Below, in pieces: positions 28,121-42,210 of a stretch of DNA of 64,000 nucleotides (positions are counted from its first letter, which is position 1; each line of letters begins with the position of its first letter). The notes beneath the pieces are model-generated. The model did not search any database. It saw only the letters and a program-made list of their open reading frames with translations, and was not told where the DNA came from. Origin of the DNA: Persephonella sp. (GTDB taxonomy: Bacteria; Aquificota; Aquificia; Aquificales; Hydrogenothermaceae); NCBI RefSeq assembly GCF_027023985.1, contig NZ_JALVTW010000025.1, forward strand, positions 1 through 64,000, written 5' to 3'. The position numbers and the translations under genes are program-made.

Positions 28121-30022
<1,902 letters not shown>

Positions 30023-30118
30023 TTACAACCTCATTTTGTTTATTATAAGCAGTATTAAATTATATAACTGTTTAAATTTTTCCGAAAATGAATATTATTA
30101 AAATAAAAACTACTATGT

Positions 30119-32755
30119 ATGAAAATGAAACAAAAACAGGAAAATAGATATTTAAAATATAACCAGTTCCTTGAAAAGAGGGCAGGGATAAAAAGTTATG
30201 GTCAGAAGGTTGTATTAGTTTTAATTTTATTATTTTTTATCTCATTTATTGCTGCTGCCGCAATATTAACAGTTATAAACATTCAGGATGAAATTCAAAG
30301 AATTAAAATAAGCCTTGAAAAAACAATTAATATAGAAAAAAAGTTGATTAAGAAGGAACTGGAAACAATAGAAAATAATGCTAAAGTTTTTATATCAACC
30401 TATGAAAAGAAAAAGAATTCTACAAACACAAATATTGATTTCAATATACTAAAAAAGTCCCATATATACAGTATTTACAATAATGTTGAACACTATACAA
30501 TTGGAAGAAAAATTCCAATTTCCTCTGTAGAATTACTCCAATACTCAGATGACAAATATATTCTGCTTACAGACTATCTCATAATAAATATGCAAAATAT
30601 GTATTATGTATTTGTTAATAAATCTGCTTTTGATTATATCTTATCTCCTCAAAATTCGCCCTTAAGTGATTATGACCCTGTTTTTGTTTTAAAAAACTCA
30701 CCTAAAACTTTCAGTTCCTTTATATGTTCTTCTTCCAAGTTTGAAAATAGCAACTTTTACATAATTGGATGTGTGGATAAGTCAACTGTCATATACGGCA
30801 AAATTATTTCCACCGTATTTGGTAGTATTGTTGTATTTTCCGTGTTTTTCTTACTTTCTTTGTCTTTTTATACTTTTTTCTTCAAAAAAATTCTTCTCTA
30901 TCCTATTAACCATTTGAGGAAAAATGTTCAATATATGAGTGATAAAGGTCTGGAAAAAGTAACATTTGACCTTCATAAATACGGAGATGATGAATTTGCC
31001 AAAATATCCCAGGTTCTTGAAGCAACAAGGCAAAAAATACTTAAACATCAAAAAGGTATGAACTTAGTTTTGACTACAACTGCAAAAATGATATCTATGA
31101 CAAACGATATACATAACTTTGCTTTATTTGCTATAAATAGCCTTGACGAGCTTCTAAATGCAGAAGGAAGTGTTTTATGCCTATATTCAAAATTAGAAGA
31201 CCATTGTTCAATACTTGTTCATTCAGACAATTATTTACTTAATAAAATCCCATTTAATCTGGAAGAAAAAGAGTTCAAAAAATTACAAAAAACTCACCAT
31301 GCAAATAATATAATCCTTGACAAAAACGGGGATAGATACATAGCCTCAATAAAAAAAGAAGTTAATGATGAATATTCCCTTTATATAGTTATCTTTAAAC
31401 GAGGAGAAAGACTATCGGAGGAGGAACTTAAATATACTGATATGATTTTATCCCATCTGGTATATAGCATAAATCTGCTAAACCTTGCAACCTATGACCC
31501 GCTTACCAGACTTTATAACAGAAGGGCAATTGTTGAATATGCAGAAAAAGAAGTTGAGAGGGCAAAAAGATATAATCATGATTTTAGCATTATATTACTG
31601 GATATAGATGATTTTAAAGGAATAAATGATACTTATGGTCACACCATGGGAGATATTGTTTTAAAACAAGTAGCAGAAATTATTCAGGAAGAAACAAGAG
31701 ATGTAGATAAGGTAGGGAGATATGGTGGAGAAGAGTTTATTATTGTATTACCTGAAACAGAAACAGAAAGTGCCTTGAGACTTGCAGAAAGAATTAGAAA
31801 GAAAATATCAGAGAAAGAATTCAAAATAGGTGATTATAAGATATCAATCACAATAAGTGCAGGTGTTGCAGGCCTTGGTATACACGGAGAAACATTTGAG
31901 GAAATCTTACAGGCTGCAGATCTTGCACTTTATCAAGCCAAGAAAAACGGTAAAAATCAGGTTGTTATGCTTGGTAAAGAAGAAATTTCACAGATACTTG
32001 AGGAAGAATTTGAAAGTAAAAATTTCCTTCTTGATGCAATCTCAGAAGACAGGGTTATACCTTACTTTCAACCTATTGTTGATTTAAATACATTTGAAAT
32101 AGTTGGATATGAAGTTCTCGCAAGGATAAAAGAAGGTGATAGAGTAATTCCAGCTTACAAATTTATAACAACAGCAATTAAGTTTGGAATTGTTTTAAAA
32201 ATAGATGAGATAATTCAAAGAAAAACTGTGGAATTTTTATTAAAAAGTGAGAAAGTTCCTCAAATGATATTTTTCAACTTATCAAGGCCGTATATTCAGG
32301 ATATATACCATATTTCCCAGTTCGTTGAGCTTCTTGAAAAGAATAATATTCCTAAAGAGAACATTGTTCTGGAAATAACAGAAGAAGAAGCAATCAGTGA
32401 AATCACAATAGTTAAAGAGGCCATCAGAATTGCAAAATCAAAAGGAATCAGATTTGCCCTTGATGATTTTGGAGTGGGCTATTCAACCTTTTCTTATATA
32501 AAGCATTTTGATATTGATATAATTAAACTTGATGGTTCTCTTGTAAAAAATATTCACAAAGACAATGATAATCAGATTATTGTCGGTGGAATAGCCTATA
32601 TATGTCGAGAAAAAGGAATAAAACTCCTTGCAGAAATGGTAGAAACAGAAGAAGAAGTGAAAATACTAAGGGAGCTTGGCGTATCCTATGCACAGGGATA
32701 TATTTTTGGAAAGCCGCAGGATAATTTTATAGAAAATATAATGGAGGAATTATAA
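30119..32755 (+). CDS. Membrane GGDEF-EAL protein
   Basis: 878 residues. An N-terminal helix (about 28-50) and a second one near 235-255 frame an extracytoplasmic sensor of unknown class. A HAMP-like stretch, a GAF-like part (about 320-450), GGDEF and EAL follow. The GGDEF is intact (DPLTRLYNRRAIV, LDIDDFKGINDTYGH, RYGGEEFIIVL). EAL shows EVLAR and DDFGVGYSTFSYI, but EMVE replaces the usual EGVE and NLSRP replaces the usual NxS segment. Cyclase activity is likely; phosphodiesterase activity is less sure. No clear ribosome site precedes the ATG. Its stop overlaps the next ATG (TAATG). Confidence 0.88.
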   Translation: MKMKQKQENRYLKYNQFLEKRAGIKSYGQKVVLVLILLFFISFIAAAAILTVINIQDEIQRIKISLEKTINIEKKLIKKELETIENNAKVFISTYEKKKNSTNTNIDFNILKKSHIYSIYNNVEHYTIGRKIPISSVELLQYSDDKYILLTDYLIINMQNMYYVFVNKSAFDYILSPQNSPLSDYDPVFVLKNSPKTFSSFICSSSKFENSNFYIIGCVDKSTVIYGKIISTVFGSIVVFSVFFLLSLSFYTFFFKKILLYPINHLRKNVQYMSDKGLEKVTFDLHKYGDDEFAKISQVLEATRQKILKHQKGMNLVLTTTAKMISMTNDIHNFALFAINSLDELLNAEGSVLCLYSKLEDHCSILVHSDNYLLNKIPFNLEEKEFKKLQKTHHANNIILDKNGDRYIASIKKEVNDEYSLYIVIFKRGERLSEEELKYTDMILSHLVYSINLLNLATYDPLTRLYNRRAIVEYAEKEVERAKRYNHDFSIILLDIDDFKGINDTYGHTMGDIVLKQVAEIIQEETRDVDKVGRYGGEEFIIVLPETETESALRLAERIRKKISEKEFKIGDYKISITISAGVAGLGIHGETFEEILQAADLALYQAKKNGKNQVVMLGKEEISQILEEEFESKNFLLDAISEDRVIPYFQPIVDLNTFEIVGYEVLARIKEGDRVIPAYKFITTAIKFGIVLKIDEIIQRKTVEFLLKSEKVPQMIFFNLSRPYIQDIYHISQFVELLEKNNIPKENIVLEITEEEAISEITIVKEAIRIAKSKGIRFALDDFGVGYSTFSYIKHFDIDIIKLDGSLVKNIHKDNDNQIIVGGIAYICREKGIKLLAEMVETEEEVKILRELGVSYAQGYIFGKPQDNFIENIMEEL

Positions 32756-34134
32756 TGGGAATTAAGTTTGGGACTGATGGATGGAGAGCAGTTATCGCAA
32801 AGGATTTCACATTTGATAATCTTCTTAAAGTAGCACAGGCACATGCAGACCATCTCAAAGAAAAAAATGGAAAAAAAGTAGTAGTAGGATACGACACCAG
32901 ATTTATGTCAGAAAATTTTGCTGCAGCAGTTGCTGAAGTTTTTTCATCAAACGGTTTTGAGGTTATACTATCCTCCACTTTTTGCTCTACCCCTGCACTT
33001 TCACTGGCAGCAAGGGATTTTGATGCAGATGAAGGAGTAATGATAACAGCCTCCCATAATACATACGAATACAACGGATACAAAATTAAAGGAGGATACG
33101 GAGGTCCTGCAACTCCGGAAATAATCAGCAGTGTTGAAGAAAAATTAGGTAATACATCTCCTAAAACAGGCACTACAAAATGGGAGGAAATGGATTTTAA
33201 CAGTTATTACATAAAAACATTAAAAAAATATCTTACCCCCGGTGTATTTAATCAAAAGCCTGAAAAGGTAATCCACGACCCTATGCACGGTGCAACAATA
33301 GGACTGCTAAATAGAATACTTGAGGATACCCTCATTGATGTTGTTGAGATAAACCATTTCAGGGATGCATTTTTTGGTTTTAAACATCCTGAGCCTGTGG
33401 AAAAAAACCTACCTCTTTTAAGGGGAAAAACCGTCGCTGAAGAAGCAGTAGCAGGTATTGCAAATGATGGAGATGGAGATAGGGTTGGTGTAGTAGATGA
33501 AGCAGGGGAATTTATAAGCACCCAGATAGTATTTGCCCTTTTACTTCTCCACACAATAAGAAACAAGAAGACAGAAGGAGCAATAGCAAAAACAGTATCA
33601 ACAACATATCTGGTTGATAGGATAGCAAAAAAAGAAGGAAGAAAGTTATACAAAACCCCTGTAGGTTTCAAATACATTGCAGATTTATTCCTGAAGGAAA
33701 AAATAGCTTTTGGCGGTGAAGAATCAGGAGGCTACGGATTTGGTTTTCATATTCCTGAAAGGGATGGGTTATTATCCGGGTTGATGATTCTGGAAATGAT
33801 TCATCTTCACGGAAAATCTCTTACACAGCTTGTTGAGGATTTATTCTCAGAATTTGGAACAGCATATTACAAAAGACTTGACCTCAAAGTAGAAGGAGAT
33901 CAGGGAAGAGTTCTTATTGAAAAACTGAAAAAAGAGCCTCTAAAAGAAATAGCAGGATTTAAAGTAAAAGAAACTGACCTGACAGATGGAGTCAAATTTA
34001 TATTTGAAAATGACGGCTGGGTATTATTCAGAGCTTCCGGAACGGAGCCTGTCCTTAGAATTTATGTTGAGATGCCAGAAAAATCAGAAGTTGATATGAT
34101 ATTAGAAGAAAGTAAAAAACTGATTGGAGGATAA
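32755..34134 (+). CDS. Phosphoglucomutase/phosphomannomutase
   Basis: Alpha-D-phosphohexomutase that moves phosphate between C1 and C6 of hexoses. The phosphoserine loop is MITASHNTYEYNGYK with Ser100; the usual Pro after the Asn is Thr here. The metal loop is DGDGDRVGVVD, the sugar loop GGEESGGYGF, and the C-terminal phosphate loop RASGTEPVLRIYVE. At 459 residues all four domains are present. Glucose, mannose or glucosamine specificity cannot be settled by eye. GGAGG lies before the ATG. It heads a run of four short-spaced plus-strand genes. Confidence 0.93.
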   Translation: MGIKFGTDGWRAVIAKDFTFDNLLKVAQAHADHLKEKNGKKVVVGYDTRFMSENFAAAVAEVFSSNGFEVILSSTFCSTPALSLAARDFDADEGVMITASHNTYEYNGYKIKGGYGGPATPEIISSVEEKLGNTSPKTGTTKWEEMDFNSYYIKTLKKYLTPGVFNQKPEKVIHDPMHGATIGLLNRILEDTLIDVVEINHFRDAFFGFKHPEPVEKNLPLLRGKTVAEEAVAGIANDGDGDRVGVVDEAGEFISTQIVFALLLLHTIRNKKTEGAIAKTVSTTYLVDRIAKKEGRKLYKTPVGFKYIADLFLKEKIAFGGEESGGYGFGFHIPERDGLLSGLMILEMIHLHGKSLTQLVEDLFSEFGTAYYKRLDLKVEGDQGRVLIEKLKKEPLKEIAGFKVKETDLTDGVKFIFENDGWVLFRASGTEPVLRIYVEMPEKSEVDMILEESKKLIGG

Positions 34135-34137
34135 ACG

Positions 34138-34551
34138 GTGGAAGAGCTGGTTTTTCATCCTTATGATGTAAGAATGTCTGAAGAAGGGGAAATAATTGCT
34201 ATAGTTGAACCTGACGAGTACCTTAAAGAAATGATAGAAAACAAGGAAACATGCTGGGAAGTGGATATAGATGTGGATTACGATGAGGAAGAACACGAAC
34301 CATACCTGCTTGTAACACTTCTGAAAGATAAAGGCCAGATATCTATGGCTTTTCCCTATGGAGAAGCATGGGAAGCTTTATCAGAAAAGGGAGTAATATC
34401 TGTAGTTCTTCTTACACAGTTTGACCTTGACCACGGAGATACATCAGATGCAATTTCTATAACTGTTGAAATAGACGGCTTCCTCAAAGGTTATATAGCA
34501 GGTGCAATGAGAATGTGGGAAGCTGTAAGCGAAGAGATTGAGGAAGAATGA
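34138..34551 (+). CDS. Acidic protein of unknown function
   Basis: A 137-residue, strongly acidic protein with Glu/Asp runs (DVDYDEEEHE and a tail EEIEEE). No membrane segment or known motif is seen. The start is GTG at 34138, with GGAGG at good distance. It lies three bases after the phosphohexomutase stop and overlaps the thioesterase gene by four bases, so it is part of that operon. I cannot assign a family; the mixed strand and helix pattern suggests a small globular domain. Confidence 0.65.
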   Translation: MEELVFHPYDVRMSEEGEIIAIVEPDEYLKEMIENKETCWEVDIDVDYDEEEHEPYLLVTLLKDKGQISMAFPYGEAWEALSEKGVISVVLLTQFDLDHGDTSDAISITVEIDGFLKGYIAGAMRMWEAVSEEIEEE

Positions 34552-34946
34552 AACTTAATTACAGCAGAAAAGTTCATTTTTATGAGACAGATGCACAGGG
34601 GGTAGTTCACCATTCAAACTATCCCCGTTATTTTGAAGAGGCAAGAGGATATTTTTTAGAGGAACTGGGGTACCCTTATCACAAAGTAAGAGAAGAACTA
34701 AATATAGATATAGTTCTTGTTGAGCTTTCTGTTAAATACAAAAATCCATTAAGATATGGTGATATTTTTAATATAGAGTTCTGGATTTCACATATGGACA
34801 GATTTTTCTTTGATTTTGATTATGTGGTGACAGCAAATCAGACTCAAATTGCAACAGGAAAAACAAAACATGTTTGTATAGACAGATTTTCCAGAAAATT
34901 AGTTTCTGTCCCAGAGGTGCTTAGAAAAGGCTATGGAGAAAAATAA
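34548..34946 (+). CDS. Acyl-CoA thioesterase, 4HBT/YbgC family
   Basis: A 132-residue hot-dog-fold thioesterase. The signature YETDAQGVVHHSNYPRYFEE carries the catalytic Asp, as in YbgC and 4-hydroxybenzoyl-CoA thioesterase. The next landmark is IVLVELSVKYKNPLRYGD. It hydrolyses an acyl-CoA or acyl-carrier thioester whose chain is unknown. It is chained by short overlaps to the genes on both sides. Confidence 0.9.
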   Translation: MKLNYSRKVHFYETDAQGVVHHSNYPRYFEEARGYFLEELGYPYHKVREELNIDIVLVELSVKYKNPLRYGDIFNIEFWISHMDRFFFDFDYVVTANQTQIATGKTKHVCIDRFSRKLVSVPEVLRKGYGEK

Positions 34947-36249
34947 GATAGTATCCTCAGTTTCAGATCTTTTATCAGGCTATCAATGGGAGATATACAT
35001 ATCCTCGGTTCAGACTTTAAAGGTCGTTTCCGGCAATTTATCTATGGAAAGCCTGACAAAATCAAAAGAGACAGGGGTAGGAATCCGGATTAAAAAAGGA
35101 GAAAAAACCGGATTTTTTTATATATCAAATCCGACAGAAGAAAAAATTAATAAAGCAGTTCAAAAGGCTATACAGTCCATTGAGATATCCGAAGATGACC
35201 CTTATATCCAATTTTCAAGCCCTACTGACAATCCTGTAAATCCAGAAATATACGATAAATATTTTGCAGAAAATTTATCTGATGCTGAAAAATCTCAGAT
35301 TGCACTGGAATTTGAAGAAAAAATAAGGTCAAAGGATAGCAGAATAACCAATATTAGAAATTGCAGTTTTATTGAAAAAATATCTGAATATACTCTGATA
35401 AATAGTAATGGAGTAGAAATTTCTGAAAAATCCACAGCATACACAATTATGGCAGCAGCCATAGCAACAGGGGAAAAAGATAGCCAGATTGCATGGGGAT
35501 TTGACTCTTCCAGGTTTCTGTCTGATTTAAATGTAGATAAAACTGCAGAAGAGATGGTTCATAATGCTGTTTCTCTACTGGGAGCAAAGCCTATTCCTTC
35601 ACAGGTAATACCTGCTTTATTTCCTCCTTATGCATTTACACAGATTTTGGAAGCCTTTTTCCCTGTTTTTTCTGGGGAAAGTCTTATCACAGGAAAAACT
35701 TATCTAAAGGATAAACTACAGGAAAAAATAGCACCTGATTTTTTAACATTGATAGACAGCGGATTACTTAGCAGAAAAGTAGGTTCCAGAAAATTTGATG
35801 ATGAAGGAACTCCAACCCAGAGCACAGAGATAATCAAAAATGGAGTATTCCAGACATTTCTACATAGCATATACACAGCAAATAAAACTTCATCTACACC
35901 AACAGGTAACGGATTTAGGAATTCTTTTAAAGATACCCCATCGGTTCAGCCTTCAAACTTTTACCTATCAAATGGCAGTCAACCTGTAAAACCAGAAGGA
36001 AAATACTTTAAAGTAATAGAAATGATGGGGCTTCATACAGCAAACCCTGTTACAGGTGATTTTTCCGTAGGAGCAACAGGATTGCTTATTCAGGATGGGT
36101 ATGAATATCCTGTAAGCGGAATAACCATATCAGGTAACTTTTTTGAGCTGCTTGGAAATATAGTCCAGATAGGTAATGACCTGAAATTCTACGGAAGATT
36201 TGGAAGCCCTTCTGTATTTGTTTCCAGAATAAATATTGGAGGAGATTAA
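34933..36249 (+). CDS. pmbA: TldE/PmbA-type metalloprotease partner protein
   Basis: A 438-residue member of the TldD/PmbA family, which together process small peptides. Landmarks are GVGIRIKKGEKTGFFYISNP near the N-terminus, a central PALFPPYAFTQILEAFFPVFSGE, and a C-terminal GLHTANPVTGDFSVGATGLL. No HExxH motif is present, so this is the PmbA (TldE) half; TldD is not in the window. The start overlaps the thioesterase by 14 bases. Confidence 0.87.
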   Translation: MEKNKIVSSVSDLLSGYQWEIYISSVQTLKVVSGNLSMESLTKSKETGVGIRIKKGEKTGFFYISNPTEEKINKAVQKAIQSIEISEDDPYIQFSSPTDNPVNPEIYDKYFAENLSDAEKSQIALEFEEKIRSKDSRITNIRNCSFIEKISEYTLINSNGVEISEKSTAYTIMAAAIATGEKDSQIAWGFDSSRFLSDLNVDKTAEEMVHNAVSLLGAKPIPSQVIPALFPPYAFTQILEAFFPVFSGESLITGKTYLKDKLQEKIAPDFLTLIDSGLLSRKVGSRKFDDEGTPTQSTEIIKNGVFQTFLHSIYTANKTSSTPTGNGFRNSFKDTPSVQPSNFYLSNGSQPVKPEGKYFKVIEMMGLHTANPVTGDFSVGATGLLIQDGYEYPVSGITISGNFFELLGNIVQIGNDLKFYGRFGSPSVFVSRINIGGD

Positions 36250-36250
36250 A

Positions 36251-36338
36251 TGGTGCCCAGGGCGGGAGTCGAACCCGCACGCCCGTTAAGGGCACTGTCC
36301 CCTCAAGACAGCGCGTCTGCCAATTCCGCCACCTGGGC
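36251..36338 (-). tRNA. tRNA-Leu (anticodon GAG), CCA encoded
   Basis: The acceptor stem GCCCAGG pairs with CCTGGGC, followed by A and an encoded CCA (36253-36251). The anticodon arm is CTGTC-TTGAGGG-GACAG with anticodon GAG. The long variable arm TGCCCTTAACGGGCG is that of a class II tRNA. The T arm GCGGGTTCGACTCCCGC is perfect. It reads against the flanking protein genes and has its own promoter at 36352-36380. Confidence 0.97.
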
Positions 36339-36351
36339 AATTGAGGATAAT

Positions 36352-36380
36352 ATTATAAGCAAAAGGAGGGTCTTTTGCAA
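36352..36380 (-). promoter_or_regulatory. Promoter of tRNA-Leu, overlapping the next gene's start
   Basis: On the minus strand TTGCAA (36380-36375), 17 bases, perfect TATAAT (36357-36352), 14 bases upstream of the tRNA. TTGCAA is palindromic, and its plus-strand copy is the TTG start plus the first codon letters of the nucleotidyltransferase gene. The spacer holds that gene's AGGAGGG. Confidence 0.65.
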
Positions 36381-38978
36381 GTAGTTTTTTTAGCTGAAGG
36401 TGCAGACCTTGATGCACTTTCTACAGCTTACGGAATAACGCTTTTATACCCTGAAACAAAGATTTTGCTTCCGGGAGCTTTATCCTCAGGGGTTAGACTG
36501 GTTTTAAAACATTTTGAAAAACTATTTAAAAATAAACTAATTAAAAAAGAAGAACTATCCCAAATTGACACACTATTTCTGGCAGATACCAATAACTATA
36601 AAAAAGCAATAAAAGAATTAAAGGGGTATGTATCCCAAGAAACAAAAATAATCATATTTGACCATCATCCTGTAAGGATAAAAATCCCTTATAAAATAGA
36701 AAAACATATAAAAAAAACAGGTGCTGCAACCACAATAGTGGTAAATAAAATAAAAAAACAAAAAATCCCTATATCTCCTGATGAAGCAACATTACTTGCC
36801 CTTGGTATCTATGAAGACACAGGTAGTTTCCTTTATGAGATAACAACACCACAGGATTTGAGGGCAGCATCTTATTTGATATCAAAGGGGGCAGACATTA
36901 ATTTGATAAAAAATATAATTGAGGAAAAAATAGATATTCAGGAGATAGAAATAATCCACCAGATAGTTGATAATATTCAAAATTTCTATCTTAAAGACAA
37001 AAAAATCGTATTTTCCACAGCTTATAGCAGCCAGTATATACCTGATATATCTTCATACCTTCATATGATTAAACCACTGCAGGAAGCAGATGCCTTTTTT
37101 ATCCTGATTACAGAAAAAACCAAAACAAGTATAATAGCCCGTTCAAAAACTCCTGAAATAGATGTAGGAAAAATAATGTCCTTTTTAGGCGGTGGAGGAC
37201 ATTACACGACTGCCAGTGCTACAGTAAAAGGTCTGACTGTTCAGGAAATAAAAAATTACATAGAAATGGTGCTTATAGGAGAAACCCATAGAAACAGAAA
37301 AATAAAAGAATTTATGTCAAACCAGATAATTACCGTTAATAAAAATCAAAAGCTTTCCCAGATTAAAGACCTTCTTGACAAAGCACCTTTGCTCTTTGTT
37401 GTAAATAAAAACGGAAAATTTGAAGGAATAGTAATAACGAAGGTTTTAAAGGAAAGCCTGAAACACGGTCTATTGGAAGCAAAAGTAGAAAACTTTATCA
37501 TTGATAGTGTAATCACATTTGAACCTGAAACAACACTAATTGAAGCAGAAAAACAAATTATGAACTCTTCTCAGGAATATTTCCCTGTTTTAAAAAAAGG
37601 TAAGCCTGTAGGAATAATAAACAGAACATATATAATCAAGATTTTACACGGACAGGTATTTGATACAGAAAAGGATATTTTCATATCACGGGAGAGGATT
37701 AAACCTCGTTATCTAAATTATGAAAACCGCCTGAGAAATTATCTACCTGAAGATATAATCTCCCATCTTGAAAAAATCGGAAAAATATCAAAACAGCTTG
37801 GATATAACACATATCTGGTAGGAGGGATAGTCAGGGATATTATCTTAGGTAAGAAAAGCCTTGATATAGACCTAATTGTTGAGGGAGATGCGATACATCT
37901 TGCCAGAGAATATGCAAAAAGTGAAAAACTGCCTGTTCATACCTTTGATGAATTTATGACAGCCCAGATAACCTTAAAAAATGGCCAGAAAATAGACTTG
38001 GCAACAGCCAGAAAAGAGATTTATACCCATCCGGGAGCATACCCAAAGGTAGAAAAAGCAACCATAAAAGAAGACCTTTACCGGAGGGATTTTACAATAA
38101 ACACCCTTGCAATAGAGATCACAGAAGGCCGTTTTGGAACACTGATAGATTATTTTAATGGCATAAAGGATATAAAGGACAAAGTAATCAGAATTCTACA
38201 CCAGCTAAGTTTCGTTGAAGACCCTATCAGGATACTAAGGGCACTTAGATTTGCAGGAAGGCTTGGCTTTAGACTGGGGAAACACACAGAAAAACTGCTT
38301 AAACTATCTGTTGATGAGAATATGCTTGAATTTGCCCCGACAGGCAGGGTAAACCTTGAGTTTACTTATACATTTAACGAGGAAAAAGTGGTTGATATCC
38401 TTATGCTTATGAACAAATACAAAGTTCTCCACAGCCTTATTCCTGAATTTTATATGGATGAAAAAAGGGAAGAAATAATCAGCAGAGTCAGAGACACAAT
38501 TATCTCATTTGAGATGTTTCTTGATATAAAAATAGACAGGGTTTCAAACTATCTCCTTTCCCTTTTATACCATTTGCCATTTGAGATTTCTTACAAATTC
38601 CTTGAAAAATATCATTTTGAAAAAAGTAAAAAATTCTTTGAGGAATATTTTGATGTAAAAGACAAATTCAAAAAAATCCCTGAAAAAAATTCGGAGCTAT
38701 ACAAAAAAATAAAATTTATCAGCAAAGATTTACTTGTCTTTATATGTGCCAGCAGCGATATTGAACTTTCTGAAAGAATTATAAAAGTTCTGAAAAAAGA
38801 GGAAGAAAAAAAACTGCTTATATCAGGGAAAGACCTGCAGGAGCTGGGCATTAAGCCATCTCCCATATACAAAGTCATAATTGATGATGTGTTTAAAAAA
38901 TATCTAGATGAAGAGATAAAAACAAAAAAAGAAGCTATTGAATACATAAAATCCAGATACAGAGAGGAGATAAAATGA
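36375..38978 (+). CDS. DHH-CBS-tRNA nucleotidyltransferase (CCA/CC/A-adding type)
   Basis: An 867-residue fusion. A DHH phosphoesterase-like part comes first (FDHHPVRIK near 95-103, FLGGGGHYTTASAT near 270). Two CBS domains follow (about 310-440). Then comes a class II nucleotidyltransferase head (YLVGGIVRDIILG, with metal residues in DIDLIVEGDA) and a body with LYRRDFTINTLA and DPIRILRALRFAGRLGF. In Aquifex aeolicus CC and A addition are split between two enzymes; which half this is cannot be read. The start is TTG at 36375 with AGGAGGG five bases before it; no ATG is available nearby. The following gene overlaps by four bases. Confidence 0.88.
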   Translation: MQVVFLAEGADLDALSTAYGITLLYPETKILLPGALSSGVRLVLKHFEKLFKNKLIKKEELSQIDTLFLADTNNYKKAIKELKGYVSQETKIIIFDHHPVRIKIPYKIEKHIKKTGAATTIVVNKIKKQKIPISPDEATLLALGIYEDTGSFLYEITTPQDLRAASYLISKGADINLIKNIIEEKIDIQEIEIIHQIVDNIQNFYLKDKKIVFSTAYSSQYIPDISSYLHMIKPLQEADAFFILITEKTKTSIIARSKTPEIDVGKIMSFLGGGGHYTTASATVKGLTVQEIKNYIEMVLIGETHRNRKIKEFMSNQIITVNKNQKLSQIKDLLDKAPLLFVVNKNGKFEGIVITKVLKESLKHGLLEAKVENFIIDSVITFEPETTLIEAEKQIMNSSQEYFPVLKKGKPVGIINRTYIIKILHGQVFDTEKDIFISRERIKPRYLNYENRLRNYLPEDIISHLEKIGKISKQLGYNTYLVGGIVRDIILGKKSLDIDLIVEGDAIHLAREYAKSEKLPVHTFDEFMTAQITLKNGQKIDLATARKEIYTHPGAYPKVEKATIKEDLYRRDFTINTLAIEITEGRFGTLIDYFNGIKDIKDKVIRILHQLSFVEDPIRILRALRFAGRLGFRLGKHTEKLLKLSVDENMLEFAPTGRVNLEFTYTFNEEKVVDILMLMNKYKVLHSLIPEFYMDEKREEIISRVRDTIISFEMFLDIKIDRVSNYLLSLLYHLPFEISYKFLEKYHFEKSKKFFEEYFDVKDKFKKIPEKNSELYKKIKFISKDLLVFICASSDIELSERIIKVLKKEEEKKLLISGKDLQELGIKPSPIYKVIIDDVFKKYLDEEIKTKKEAIEYIKSRYREEIK

Positions 38979-39469
38979 TTTTCCTGAGTTTGATTGCCGC
39001 TGTTGTCCTTTCTATAGGGCAGGTTCCCCCTGTTGTCCATCTGGACGGAAAAATAGGAGGCAAAGTTGACGGAAAACCATTTTCCACAGAAATGATAAAA
39101 GGAAAGGTCTATCTGGTTTTATATGTTGACCCTGATAAAAGAGACCTGAATGAAGATTTTGCTGAGGCTTTAAAAAAACAGCATTTTGACCACTCAAAAT
39201 TCGGTTCAATAGCAATCATAAATATGAAGGCAACATGGCTGCCAAACTTTGTGCTGGAAAGCATCCTAAAGAAAAAGCAGAAAAAATATCCCCATACTAT
39301 TTATGTAAAGGATTACGATAAGGTTTTTGTCAAAAAATGGGGTTTAAAGGATGAAGATTACAACGTGCTACTTTTTGATAAAAGCGGCAAATTGTTGTTT
39401 TACAAGTCTGGAAAGCTAACTCCGGAAGATACCCAGAAGGTCATTCAGCTTATAAAACAGAATCTATGA
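38975..39469 (+). CDS. YtfJ-like exported thioredoxin-fold protein
   Basis: A 164-residue protein with a signal peptide (MIFLSLIAAVVLSIGQV). It has a thioredoxin-like pattern without a CxxC motif: GKVYLVLYVDPDKRDLNEDF, TWLPNFVLESILKKK, and YNVLLFDKSGKLLFYKSG. This matches YtfJ-type proteins, whose role is unclear; a direct redox function is unlikely without cysteines. Its ATG overlaps the stop of the nucleotidyltransferase (ATGA). Confidence 0.72.
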   Translation: MIFLSLIAAVVLSIGQVPPVVHLDGKIGGKVDGKPFSTEMIKGKVYLVLYVDPDKRDLNEDFAEALKKQHFDHSKFGSIAIINMKATWLPNFVLESILKKKQKKYPHTIYVKDYDKVFVKKWGLKDEDYNVLLFDKSGKLLFYKSGKLTPEDTQKVIQLIKQNL

Positions 39470-39527
39470 TTTATTTCAGTTATTCCCTTTTTTCTCAAGC
39501 ATAAAATAAGGAAAAGAGGTAATGACC

Positions 39528-40310
39528 ATGAAGATATGCACTTTTAATGTGAACTCTATACGGACAAGAAAAGATCTGATAATCCGTTGGCTTATAGAAA
39601 AGGAAAAGGATATAGATATCCTATGTTTTCAGGAAATAAAGGTTGAAGATGACAAATTTCCCTATGAAGATTTTGAAAAGCTTGGATACAAGGCTGTAGT
39701 TTATGGTCAAAAAGGATATAACGGTGTTGCAACCCTTTCCAGAAAGGATTTTGTTGAAATTAAAAAAGGTCTTGGGGATGAATACTTTGACCAGCAAAAA
39801 AGAATTTTATCTACAAAGATAGGAGATATCTGGGTCATAAATGTGTATGCTCCCCACGGAGATTTAAGAGGCGGAGATAAATACTATTACAAGCTTGACT
39901 GGTATAAAAGGTTCAGGCAGTTTTTGGATGAAAACTTTTCACCTGAAGATAAAATAATAGCCCTCGGAGATTTTAATGTTGCCATTGAAGATATAGATGT
40001 TTACGACCCGGAGCTACTTGCTGACACCATCGGCACAATGCCGGAAGAAAGGGAATCCTTCAAAAATATCCTTGATTTTGGTTTTGTTGATACTTTCAGA
40101 TATCTGTATCCAGACAAACAGCAGTTTACATGGTGGGATTATATCGGCGGTGCTATCTGGAAAAATGAAGGAATGAGAATAGATTACATTCTTGCCACAA
40201 AACCACTAATTCCACATCTGAAAGATGTTTATGTTGATTTATGGCCAAGGAGAAGAAGGACACCAAAACCATCAGACCACGCACCTGTAATAGCAATATT
40301 TGAGGTTTAA
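39528..40310 (+). CDS. xth: Exodeoxyribonuclease III
   Basis: AP endonuclease and 3'-5' exonuclease of base-excision repair. Motifs in order are KICTFNVNSIR, ILCFQEIKVED (metal Glu), VINVYAPHGD, LGDFNVAIEDIDVYDP, TWWDYIGG, MRIDYILAT and SDHAPV (catalytic His). The second ATG at 39528 is used because GAGGT lies seven bases before it and only one base before the first ATG at 39522. The product has 260 residues, which is normal. Confidence 0.95.
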   Translation: MKICTFNVNSIRTRKDLIIRWLIEKEKDIDILCFQEIKVEDDKFPYEDFEKLGYKAVVYGQKGYNGVATLSRKDFVEIKKGLGDEYFDQQKRILSTKIGDIWVINVYAPHGDLRGGDKYYYKLDWYKRFRQFLDENFSPEDKIIALGDFNVAIEDIDVYDPELLADTIGTMPEERESFKNILDFGFVDTFRYLYPDKQQFTWWDYIGGAIWKNEGMRIDYILATKPLIPHLKDVYVDLWPRRRRTPKPSDHAPVIAIFEV

Positions 40311-40311
40311 T

Positions 40312-41613
40312 ATGGATTTATTATTGGAAGGTTATAATCAGGACTTAAAAAGACTTGAGGAAGAAATAGATAAATATTATCAGGAATATCTGACCCTTAA
40401 TCAGGTTTTTATTTCAGATAAGAAGGATTACGAGCAAATTCTGCTTAACTACGGCACAGAAGAGCTAAAATTTACCCTTGGCTTTCTTACAAGTATTTAT
40501 AAAAATATCCAGCAAAAAAAATATGCGGTTATAGACAGTATTTTTGATACCATTGAGCATTCCGGAGAATTTGAACTATCAATATTTTACGGAAATCGTA
40601 TTTTAGAAAAGTTCAAAGGTCAGGATGCAGATGAGTATTTAATTAGACTCTATACCCTAAAAAGAATGCTTAACGCCCTATTGATCCTTGATGACAGACT
40701 GGAATTTTTAAAATATCTAATTGAGTTCATAAAAACCTCAAAGGAGTTTTTCAGTTCATACAGTAAACTCCTCAAAGAAAACTACCGTAATGCAATGGAT
40801 TTTTATCAATTTATCTATGTTTATTATTTGAAATTCCATTCTGATGACGAACAAGCCCTTGGTTCACTTATAAAAAGCTACAATATAAAAAAACTGATGA
40901 TAGAAAATCAGCTTTTACCTTATCCAAAAGAAAACAATATTTTACAAATTATAAATATAGTCGGCAGCTATCTGCAGATAGAGGATTCTTTCGTTGCACT
41001 CGTTATGGACATTGATGATTATATAAAGGAATTTGTAAAGCAGATAAAGGATTTAAAAGAGTTTTCTAAAAAAAGCCCTTCTATTCTGGAATTATACATG
41101 CAGCAGCCATTTAAAAAATATATCAACCAGTTTTTAACAAATATATACATAATGGGTTTTGAGGAAGAATACCATCAGGTCAGCCAGATTTTTCCTGAGA
41201 TTATAACAATAGACCATAAGCTTATAGTTGAGATAAACGAAATCCTTATGAAAGACCCGTTCAAAGAGAAAAAACTTTTATCCCTCAAGGAAGAGATTGA
41301 AAGGGCATTTAATAATCTGTCCTCTGAAAAAAAGGAAAGCGTGCTTTATGTTTATTACAATGCTTTAATTTCTGTATTTTATGAAAATCCTGAATTTTTG
41401 GAAAAAATAAAAAAAGAAATAGAAGAATACAAATCAAAACTAAGAAATGCTTACAGCCTTGATGTTCCATTGTTCAGGATTCTGGGAGTTCAAGGAGAAA
41501 AAGAAAAGGCAAAACAGCTTGCAAATCAGGTAAGGGAACAGGCAGTTATCGCAGGTAAAAAATTTCTTGTCAATGCAATAGATGACTATATAAAAACAGA
41601 ACTGGATGTATGA
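40312..41613 (+). CDS. Large helical protein of unknown function
   Basis: A 433-residue protein rich in Lys, Glu, Leu and Tyr. It is nearly all helix by pattern, with long heptad-like runs (for example LEEEIDKYYQEYLTLNQ and EKIKKEIEEYKSKLRNAY). No membrane segment or catalytic motif is visible. ATG at 40312, one base after the xth stop, is chosen because GAGG lies at proper distance; the in-frame TTG at 40300 lies inside xth. A TetR gene with its own promoter follows. Function unknown. Confidence 0.7.
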   Translation: MDLLLEGYNQDLKRLEEEIDKYYQEYLTLNQVFISDKKDYEQILLNYGTEELKFTLGFLTSIYKNIQQKKYAVIDSIFDTIEHSGEFELSIFYGNRILEKFKGQDADEYLIRLYTLKRMLNALLILDDRLEFLKYLIEFIKTSKEFFSSYSKLLKENYRNAMDFYQFIYVYYLKFHSDDEQALGSLIKSYNIKKLMIENQLLPYPKENNILQIINIVGSYLQIEDSFVALVMDIDDYIKEFVKQIKDLKEFSKKSPSILELYMQQPFKKYINQFLTNIYIMGFEEEYHQVSQIFPEIITIDHKLIVEINEILMKDPFKEKKLLSLKEEIERAFNNLSSEKKESVLYVYYNALISVFYENPEFLEKIKKEIEEYKSKLRNAYSLDVPLFRILGVQGEKEKAKQLANQVREQAVIAGKKFLVNAIDDYIKTELDV

Positions 41614-41626
41614 ACAAGCTTTCCAA

Positions 41627-41655
41627 TTGACACCTTAAATCTTTTTATTTAAATT
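41627..41655 (+). promoter_or_regulatory. Promoter of the TetR-efflux operon
   Basis: TTGACA (41627-41632), 17 bases, TAAATT (41650-41655). The start of transcription would be near 41662, only a few bases before the ATG at 41665. Confidence 0.55.
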
Positions 41656-41658
41656 AAA

Positions 41659-41676
41659 TGACTGATGAGTCAGTCA
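41659..41676. promoter_or_regulatory. TetR-type operator covering the start codon
   Basis: Perfect inverted repeat TGACTGA-TGAG-TCAGTCA. The arms resemble operators of AcrR/TetR repressors. The ATG of the TetR gene (41665-41667) lies inside it, and the predicted transcription start falls within it, so self-repression is very likely. Confidence 0.7.
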
Positions 41677-42210
41677 ACAAAAGAAAAGCTTATAAACTCG
41701 GCAATACAGATATTTTCCCAGAAGGGATTTTATAACACCAAAATATCCGATATAGTCCAGAATGCCGGACTGGCACAGGGCACATTTTATATATACTTCA
41801 AAAGCAAAGAAGATATTTTTATGCATATAGTCCTGATGATAGTTGACCAGATAAACCAGACCATTGAGAAATATTCCTCGCACAAAGATATTCCGGAAAA
41901 GGTTATGAAACTCTTTGCAAGGGAGATTTTTGCCCTTCTTTACCAGTATAAACAGATAGCTTATATATTTTTCTTCCAAATAATATGTGTAAATGAAGAA
42001 TTTCAGAAGATATACTTTGAGACATCAAGGAAAATCTTTGAGTTTTATAAAAAGAACCTTCAAGAGTTTCCGGATAATGAAATTAGAGCAGATATCCTTA
42101 TTGGTTATGGTAAAAGACTAACAGAGGTTGAACTTCTAATAAACAATCTTAGCTATGAAGAAATCATACAAAAATTTGATAAGGCAATAGAAATAATAAC
42201 AGGAGCCTGA
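41665..42210 (+). CDS. TetR-family repressor of the efflux operon
   Basis: A 181-residue regulator. The N-terminal helix-turn-helix is TKISDIVQNAGLAQGTFYIYFKSKEDIF, the standard TetR form ending in tyrosine and YFxSKE. The C-terminal ligand domain is not specific. It starts inside its own operator with almost no leader and no ribosome site, so translation may be leaderless. The TolC gene begins one base after its stop, making it the first gene of the efflux operon, which it should repress until a drug or other ligand binds. Confidence 0.92.
   Translation: MSQSTKEKLINSAIQIFSQKGFYNTKISDIVQNAGLAQGTFYIYFKSKEDIFMHIVLMIVDQINQTIEKYSSHKDIPEKVMKLFAREIFALLYQYKQIAYIFFFQIICVNEEFQKIYFETSRKIFEFYKKNLQEFPDNEIRADILIGYGKRLTEVELLINNLSYEEIIQKFDKAIEIITGA

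Follow-up and report, generated by a model that had tools for sequence, protein, structure and literature searches.

Poor start codons are usually put down to expression level. In the window analyzed here, meaning the whole 64,000-nt stretch of Persephonella DNA, the gene of a putative tRNA nucleotidyltransferase starts with TTG, and on the opposite strand the same bases belong to what looks like the −35 box of a divergent tRNA-Leu gene. Does the promoter of the neighboring gene account for the start codon? Read directly on the minus strand, TTGCAA (36380–36375) is followed by a spacer of 17 nt (36374–36358) and TATAAT (36357–36352), with 13 nt between the −10 box and base 1 of tRNA-Leu(GAG) as placed by ARAGORN. 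The features of the region are as follows.

34933–36249, plus strand: gene of a PmbA/TldD-family protease; its end is 1 nt away from the 3′ end of the tRNA gene
36251–36338, minus strand: tRNA-Leu, anticodon GAG, CCA encoded (ARAGORN; RF00005, 49.8 bits at 36254–36338; 3′ end CACCA)
36351–36356, plus strand: candidate −10 box TATTAT (5/6 match), overlapping the tRNA −10 box; from sequence only, with a speculative leader of ~12 nt
36352–36357, minus strand: putative −10 box TATAAT of the tRNA promoter (6/6 match; also in 33/33 tRNA-adjacent family genomes)
36358–36374, minus strand: promoter spacer, 17 nt, whose complement is the translation-initiation region of the enzyme gene
36359–36378, plus strand: inverted repeat GCAAAAGG-AGGG-TCTTTTGC, which could fold the Shine-Dalgarno sequence and the start codon (RNA fold)
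36363–36369, plus strand: Shine-Dalgarno sequence AAGGAGG of the enzyme gene, within the promoter spacer, 5 nt before TTG
36375–36380, minus strand: putative −35 box of the tRNA promoter, TTGCAA (29/33 tRNA-adjacent genomes; TTGCAT in 4/33)
36375–36377, plus strand: TTG start codon of the nucleotidyltransferase gene, corresponding to −35 positions 4–6 (Shine-Dalgarno sequence, upstream in-frame stop, homologues)
36378–36380, plus strand: codon 2, CAA (Gln), corresponding to −35 positions 1–3 (TTG); CAA in 33/33
36375–38978, plus strand: nucleotidyltransferase open reading frame of 867 aa, beginning TTG CAA

The overlap of promoter and start codon is real, which confirms the original observation. 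As had been claimed, TTGCAA serves both genes, since the minus-strand −35 hexamer is identical with plus-strand codons 1 and 2 at 36375–36380, and the ribosome site does sit in the 17-base spacer, with AAGGAGG at 36363–36369 lying inside 36358–36374. TTG is the first possible start of the enzyme in the window, because an in-frame TAA is located upstream (36348–36350) and neither ATG, GTG nor TTG occurs between this stop and position 36375. A scan of 30000–42000 at the Rfam gathering thresholds was empty, tRNA included; the tRNA call rests on ARAGORN and on the genome search with RF00005.

The protein encoded on the plus strand combines a DHH domain, two CBS domains and a poly(A) polymerase head (Pfam PF01368, PF00571 in two stretches, and PF01743) and matches the profile NF041569 at 1.2e-143, with residues 1–856 aligned to 1–871 of 880. 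Because its score of 480 bits lies under the curated NCBI cut-off of 1440, it is labeled here as a predicted ‘A-adding-type’ tRNA nucleotidyltransferase rather than filed as an NF041569 member, and A-only addition is putative. Among solved structures, the closest in sequence carry the name ‘poly A polymerase’, for example PDB 1vfg and 4wby (E about 1e-80), which we take to be the Aquifex A-adding enzyme. An enzyme homologue with 95% identity is present in a Persephonella MAG, and a search for related loci returned four, three of which are close relatives. In a crude test, about nine of the 30 tRNA genes of the same genome (eight by script and Val-TAC by eye) do not encode CCA, so that these ∼9 tRNAs must acquire CC and A post-transcriptionally.

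A promoter scan of 4.5 kb gave 17 matches against 16.3 expected from shuffled sequences, i.e., no excess, and at this chance level the scan was dropped as evidence by itself. What raises the putative tRNA promoter above chance is its position, its conservation and the codon constraint described below. Its sequence is of the sigma-70 type, with TATAAT at 13 nt from the tRNA, a spacer of 17 nt and a TTGCAA that matches TTGACA at 4/6 positions. For 15 of the 29 further tRNA genes inspected in this genome, a promoter matching at 9/12 positions or better was detected; the distance to the tRNA is 12–15 nt in 12 of these 15, and exact TATAAT occurs in nine and exact TTGACA in seven of the 15, in a scan that is biased to consensus-like hexamers and thus shows the expected position rather than an unbiased motif. 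The tRNA-Leu(GAG) promoter resembles these same-genome promoters (TTGNNN-16/18-TATAAT) in architecture and position, but in contrast to them it covers the start codon of a divergent gene. Since the promoters of tRNA-His and tRNA-Ser(GGA) also read TTGCAA at −35, this hexamer is acceptable as a −35 box in the Persephonella genome. When all 30 tRNA genes, tRNA-Leu(GAG) included, were scanned for an opposite-strand frame of at least 80 aa starting within 75 nt, four others were found, and none of these four frames starts on a −35 box that belongs to a promoter match scoring 9/12 or more.

The order was searched across 112 genomes, of which 41 belong to the same family of heat-loving bacteria as the window. 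The 5′ end of the enzyme gene was readable in 35 of the 41; G070, G071, G075, G085, G096 and G103, without this end or without a match at 1e-100, were left out, and G093, below the 1e-100 threshold, was added by reading its locus (L079). A divergent tRNA-Leu(GAG) gene accompanies the enzyme gene in 33 of the 35 genomes; the tRNA gene of G084 is truncated by its contig. Of the two hexamers whose conservation in relatives had been proposed as a check, TATAAT is present in all 33 tRNA-adjacent genomes, at a spacing of 17 nt in 30 and of 16 nt in three, whereas TTGCAA is found in 29 and gives way to TTGCAT in four. The palindrome named in the original prediction is therefore not a conserved unit. 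The enzyme starts with TTG in 29 of the 33 genomes, with ATG in four and with GTG in none, the start codons being assigned from Shine-Dalgarno sequence, frame and homology, in several genes with a weak Shine-Dalgarno match only (AGG or GAGG). Codon 2 is CAA in 33/33, including the four genes with an ATG start; as the family rows are related by phylogeny, none of these counts represents independent events. TTG is favored but not required, because ATG together with TTGCAT occurs in two clades that keep the adjacent tRNA, G072/G073 and G078/G079. Across the family genomes, the enzyme is between 96% and 42% identical to that of the window. The next upstream gene is PmbA in 23 of 34 family rows; a thioesterase gene directly adjoins the tRNA in three, and neither was found beside the pair in eight (one contig is too short and two are the genomes with separated genes described next). 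The tRNA–enzyme pair thus seems to have outlived its upstream neighbor in some genomes.

Two genomes of one genus, G094 and G095, carry the enzyme gene without an upstream tRNA, and here it starts with ATG GAT and ATG AAT, respectively. In a tree of 41 rows they nest within the tRNA-adjacent clade as sister to G080 (support 97/95), and the tRNA-adjacent state requires two changes on this tree, for which a single gain plus a single loss is the simplest reading. The separation amounts to one event in two genomes of a single genus. In G094, tRNA-Leu(GAG) is located elsewhere with the promoter TTGAAA-16-TATAAT, beside a gene that is presumably yebC-like, and the enzyme gene (L026) is preceded by what we take to be the serine-tRNA ligase gene. 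In the 69%-complete assembly of G095, a tRNA-Leu(GAG) match above 78% identity was not found. Of the 71 genomes outside the family, 28 (8 + 20) were read, and the nearest in-frame start of the enzyme gene is ATG in 22 and GTG in six but never TTG; one of the 28 has CAA as codon 2. An in-frame TTG is located farther upstream, past a nearer ATG, in G001, G029, G064 and G111. Excluding the upstream region of G106, none of the 27 outgroup upstream regions, which span 172 nt to 2.5 kb, contains tRNA-Leu(GAG). While the catalytic half of the window's enzyme is homologous to the Aquifex A-adding enzyme, its locus differs in both the TTG start and the adjoining tRNA-Leu(GAG), neither of which was seen in these genes and upstream regions outside the family. 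The earlier suggestion that the promoter may force the use of TTG gains support from this distribution, with TTG as start in 29/33 tRNA-adjacent genes, 0/2 separated genes and, as nearest in-frame start, 0/28 outgroup genes. In 12 outgroup genomes in which tRNA-Leu(GAG) stands alone, the best-scoring −35 box is TTGGCA in five. By eye, a plus-strand TATAAT lies 8–10 nt ahead of the likely enzyme start at the outgroup loci L042, L044, L176 and L181–L185, which suggests that the enzyme mRNAs at these loci are leaderless or have very short leaders.

Synonymous sites were analyzed in 31 aligned tRNA-adjacent genes; G090 and G093 are absent from the tree and from the codon test, and G099 and G101, with a spacer of 16 nt, were omitted from one set of column counts and included in the codon and parsimony tests. 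Excluding the start codon, 105 columns have one residue throughout the 31 aligned proteins, and codon 2 is the only one of them encoded by a single codon. Elsewhere in these genes Gln is encoded by CAG 324 times and by CAA 245 times, and in the enzyme gene of the window by 15 CAG and six CAA. Parsimony on a FastTree protein tree assigned no third-position change to codon 2, the next lowest value among the 105 columns being one and the median seven. The start codon changed twice (TTG/ATG) on this tree and the third positions of codons 3–7 took 6 to 11 steps; codons 1–2 and the −10 box are almost fixed across the tRNA-adjacent genes. As there is no synonymous change at codon 2, selection acts on its bases and not on Gln alone. 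The constraint thus appears stronger than the original prediction held, because CAA is invariant even where the start codon is ATG.

We consider it very likely that the tRNA-Leu(GAG) promoter uses codons 1–2 of the enzyme gene as its −35 box, with the ribosome-binding region as the 17-nt spacer, and that selection on tRNA transcription has held TTG CAA in place. The −35 box in this register would be the complement of codon 2 followed by that of codon 1. Codon 2 is complementary to −35 positions 1–3, so a TTG that is maintained there would fix this codon as CAA and the second residue as Gln. The consensus TTGACA is impossible here, because it would require TGT as start codon, and the choice of start codon would set the rest of the box: TTG gives TTGCAA (4/6), ATG gives TTGCAT and GTG gives TTGCAC (both 3/6). 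Among the common start codons, only TTG has a complement that provides the consensus A at −35 position 6. TTG would accordingly represent a compromise, in which a poorer start codon is traded for a better promoter, and the two ATG clades would have tipped the other way. Selection would have kept TTG CAA in most of the family, and the sequence would have been lost where the genes separated. Most likely, then, the tRNA promoter imposed both the TTG start and Gln2 on the enzyme; we infer that TATAAT/TTGCAA is the promoter in use and that the −35 box is what selection sees. That regulatory DNA overlapping coding DNA constrains it is already known in general; our search of titles and abstract openings, which covers part of the literature, returned no report of this overlap or of a start codon explained in this way.

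Could the conserved bases serve translation instead, with TTG kept as a weak start that limits the enzyme level, CAA as a favorable second codon, and a merely coincidental promoter? A minority of genes is known to start with TTG, with a mean share of 5.72% of CDSs in a large bacterial survey (excerpt of PMC5850271), and a crude count in the window gives 3/46 long open reading frames with a codon prior and 5/46 without. Yet neither the two separated family genes nor the 28 outgroup genes use TTG, the base following the start codon is generally preferred to be A rather than C according to the same excerpt (PMC5850271), and the invariant Gln/CAA in 33/33 genomes, kept in genes with ATG starts, would be left unexplained; we regard this reading as improbable. 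Shared ancestry or local mutational coldness could likewise preserve the sequence, and the layout is indeed inherited, with two changes on the tree that can be read as one gain and one loss. This has very little to recommend it, since the third positions of codons 3–7 change freely while codons 1–2 and the −10 box stay nearly fixed, in full-length proteins that have diverged to 42–61% identity to the window in other genera. Equally hard to credit is that TTGCAA, instead of being a −35 box, serves as the site of a regulator or forms one side of a hairpin that sequesters the Shine-Dalgarno sequence. The two arms GCAAAAGG and TCTTTTGC of the window do fold when taken alone (36359–36385, −8.2 kcal/mol, z −4.0), but z is only −1.7 in the longer stretch 36345–36395, the upstream arm is by eye not kept across the family, and in four genomes the palindrome is broken whereas its spacing to TATAAT is kept. 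As a conserved unit, the hairpin was rejected for its weakness in the longer stretch and its absence, by eye, from the family as a whole. Shorter versions of the 36359–36378 inverted repeat were noticed by eye in some related genomes.

The −10 region could have a further function that would add to the tRNA promoter model rather than replace it. As a bidirectional promoter, TATTATA would load RNA polymerase in either direction, the enzyme mRNA would have a leader of ∼12 nt that begins at the Shine-Dalgarno sequence, and tRNA and enzyme synthesis would compete. In line with this, the plus-strand TATTAT (5/6) overlaps the minus-strand TATAAT, and an excerpt of PMC12825309 describes bidirectional promoters of E. 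coli as competing when one direction is substantially activated. We nevertheless hold it doubtful, though worth keeping in view: TATAATA is present in all nine other tRNA promoters of this genome with an exact TATAAT, eight of which lack an opposite-strand frame of 80 aa that begins within 75 nt, a plus-strand −35 box is not evident by eye, and the co-directional upstream gene would allow read-through instead. As far as the excerpts of PMC12825309 and PMC10268837 describe them, bidirectional and overlapping divergent promoters likewise use one DNA element for both strands, with possible competition between polymerases; here, by contrast, a −35 box and a start codon are shared and the second promoter is only putative. 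Similarly, −10 motifs adjoining open reading frames and leaderless genes (excerpt of PMC12340547) place a promoter element near a start codon, but in those systems the promoter drives the same gene, and here it would drive the divergent tRNA.

Read-through from the PmbA/TldD-family gene would cross the tRNA in antisense orientation before it reached the enzyme gene, and antisense transcripts to a tRNA are reported for Aquifex aeolicus in an excerpt of PMC4227106. Interference of tRNA transcription with that of the enzyme is a plausible consequence of the overlap. A more elaborate version, which we judge unlikely, takes the overlap to be a regulatory device: polymerase on the strong tRNA promoter would block read-through or bidirectional transcription into the enzyme gene, so that a drop in tRNA synthesis would raise the level of the repair enzyme, and the pair would be kept for this coupling, with the start codon and residue 2 as its price. 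Because a tRNA gene is paired with a tRNA-finishing enzyme, such regulatory coupling can be addressed directly at this locus.

With the tRNA promoter as the preferred explanation, the promoter of a neighbor would account for residue 2 of a protein as well as for its start codon. The natural control provided by two genomes without the overlap and the synonymous-site test back a constraint at the DNA level on a translation start, which makes the locus a clean, testable case and a warning for start-site annotation. In 10 of the 33 tRNA-adjacent genomes (L014–L021, L028 and L030) an in-frame ATG is located 18 nt upstream of the TTG/ATG start. It was rejected as a general start, being absent from 23/33 genomes including the window and having the Shine-Dalgarno sequence downstream of it. 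This ATG arises where the complement of the −10 box ends (as in TATATG and similar sequences), and automatic annotation may wrongly pick it.
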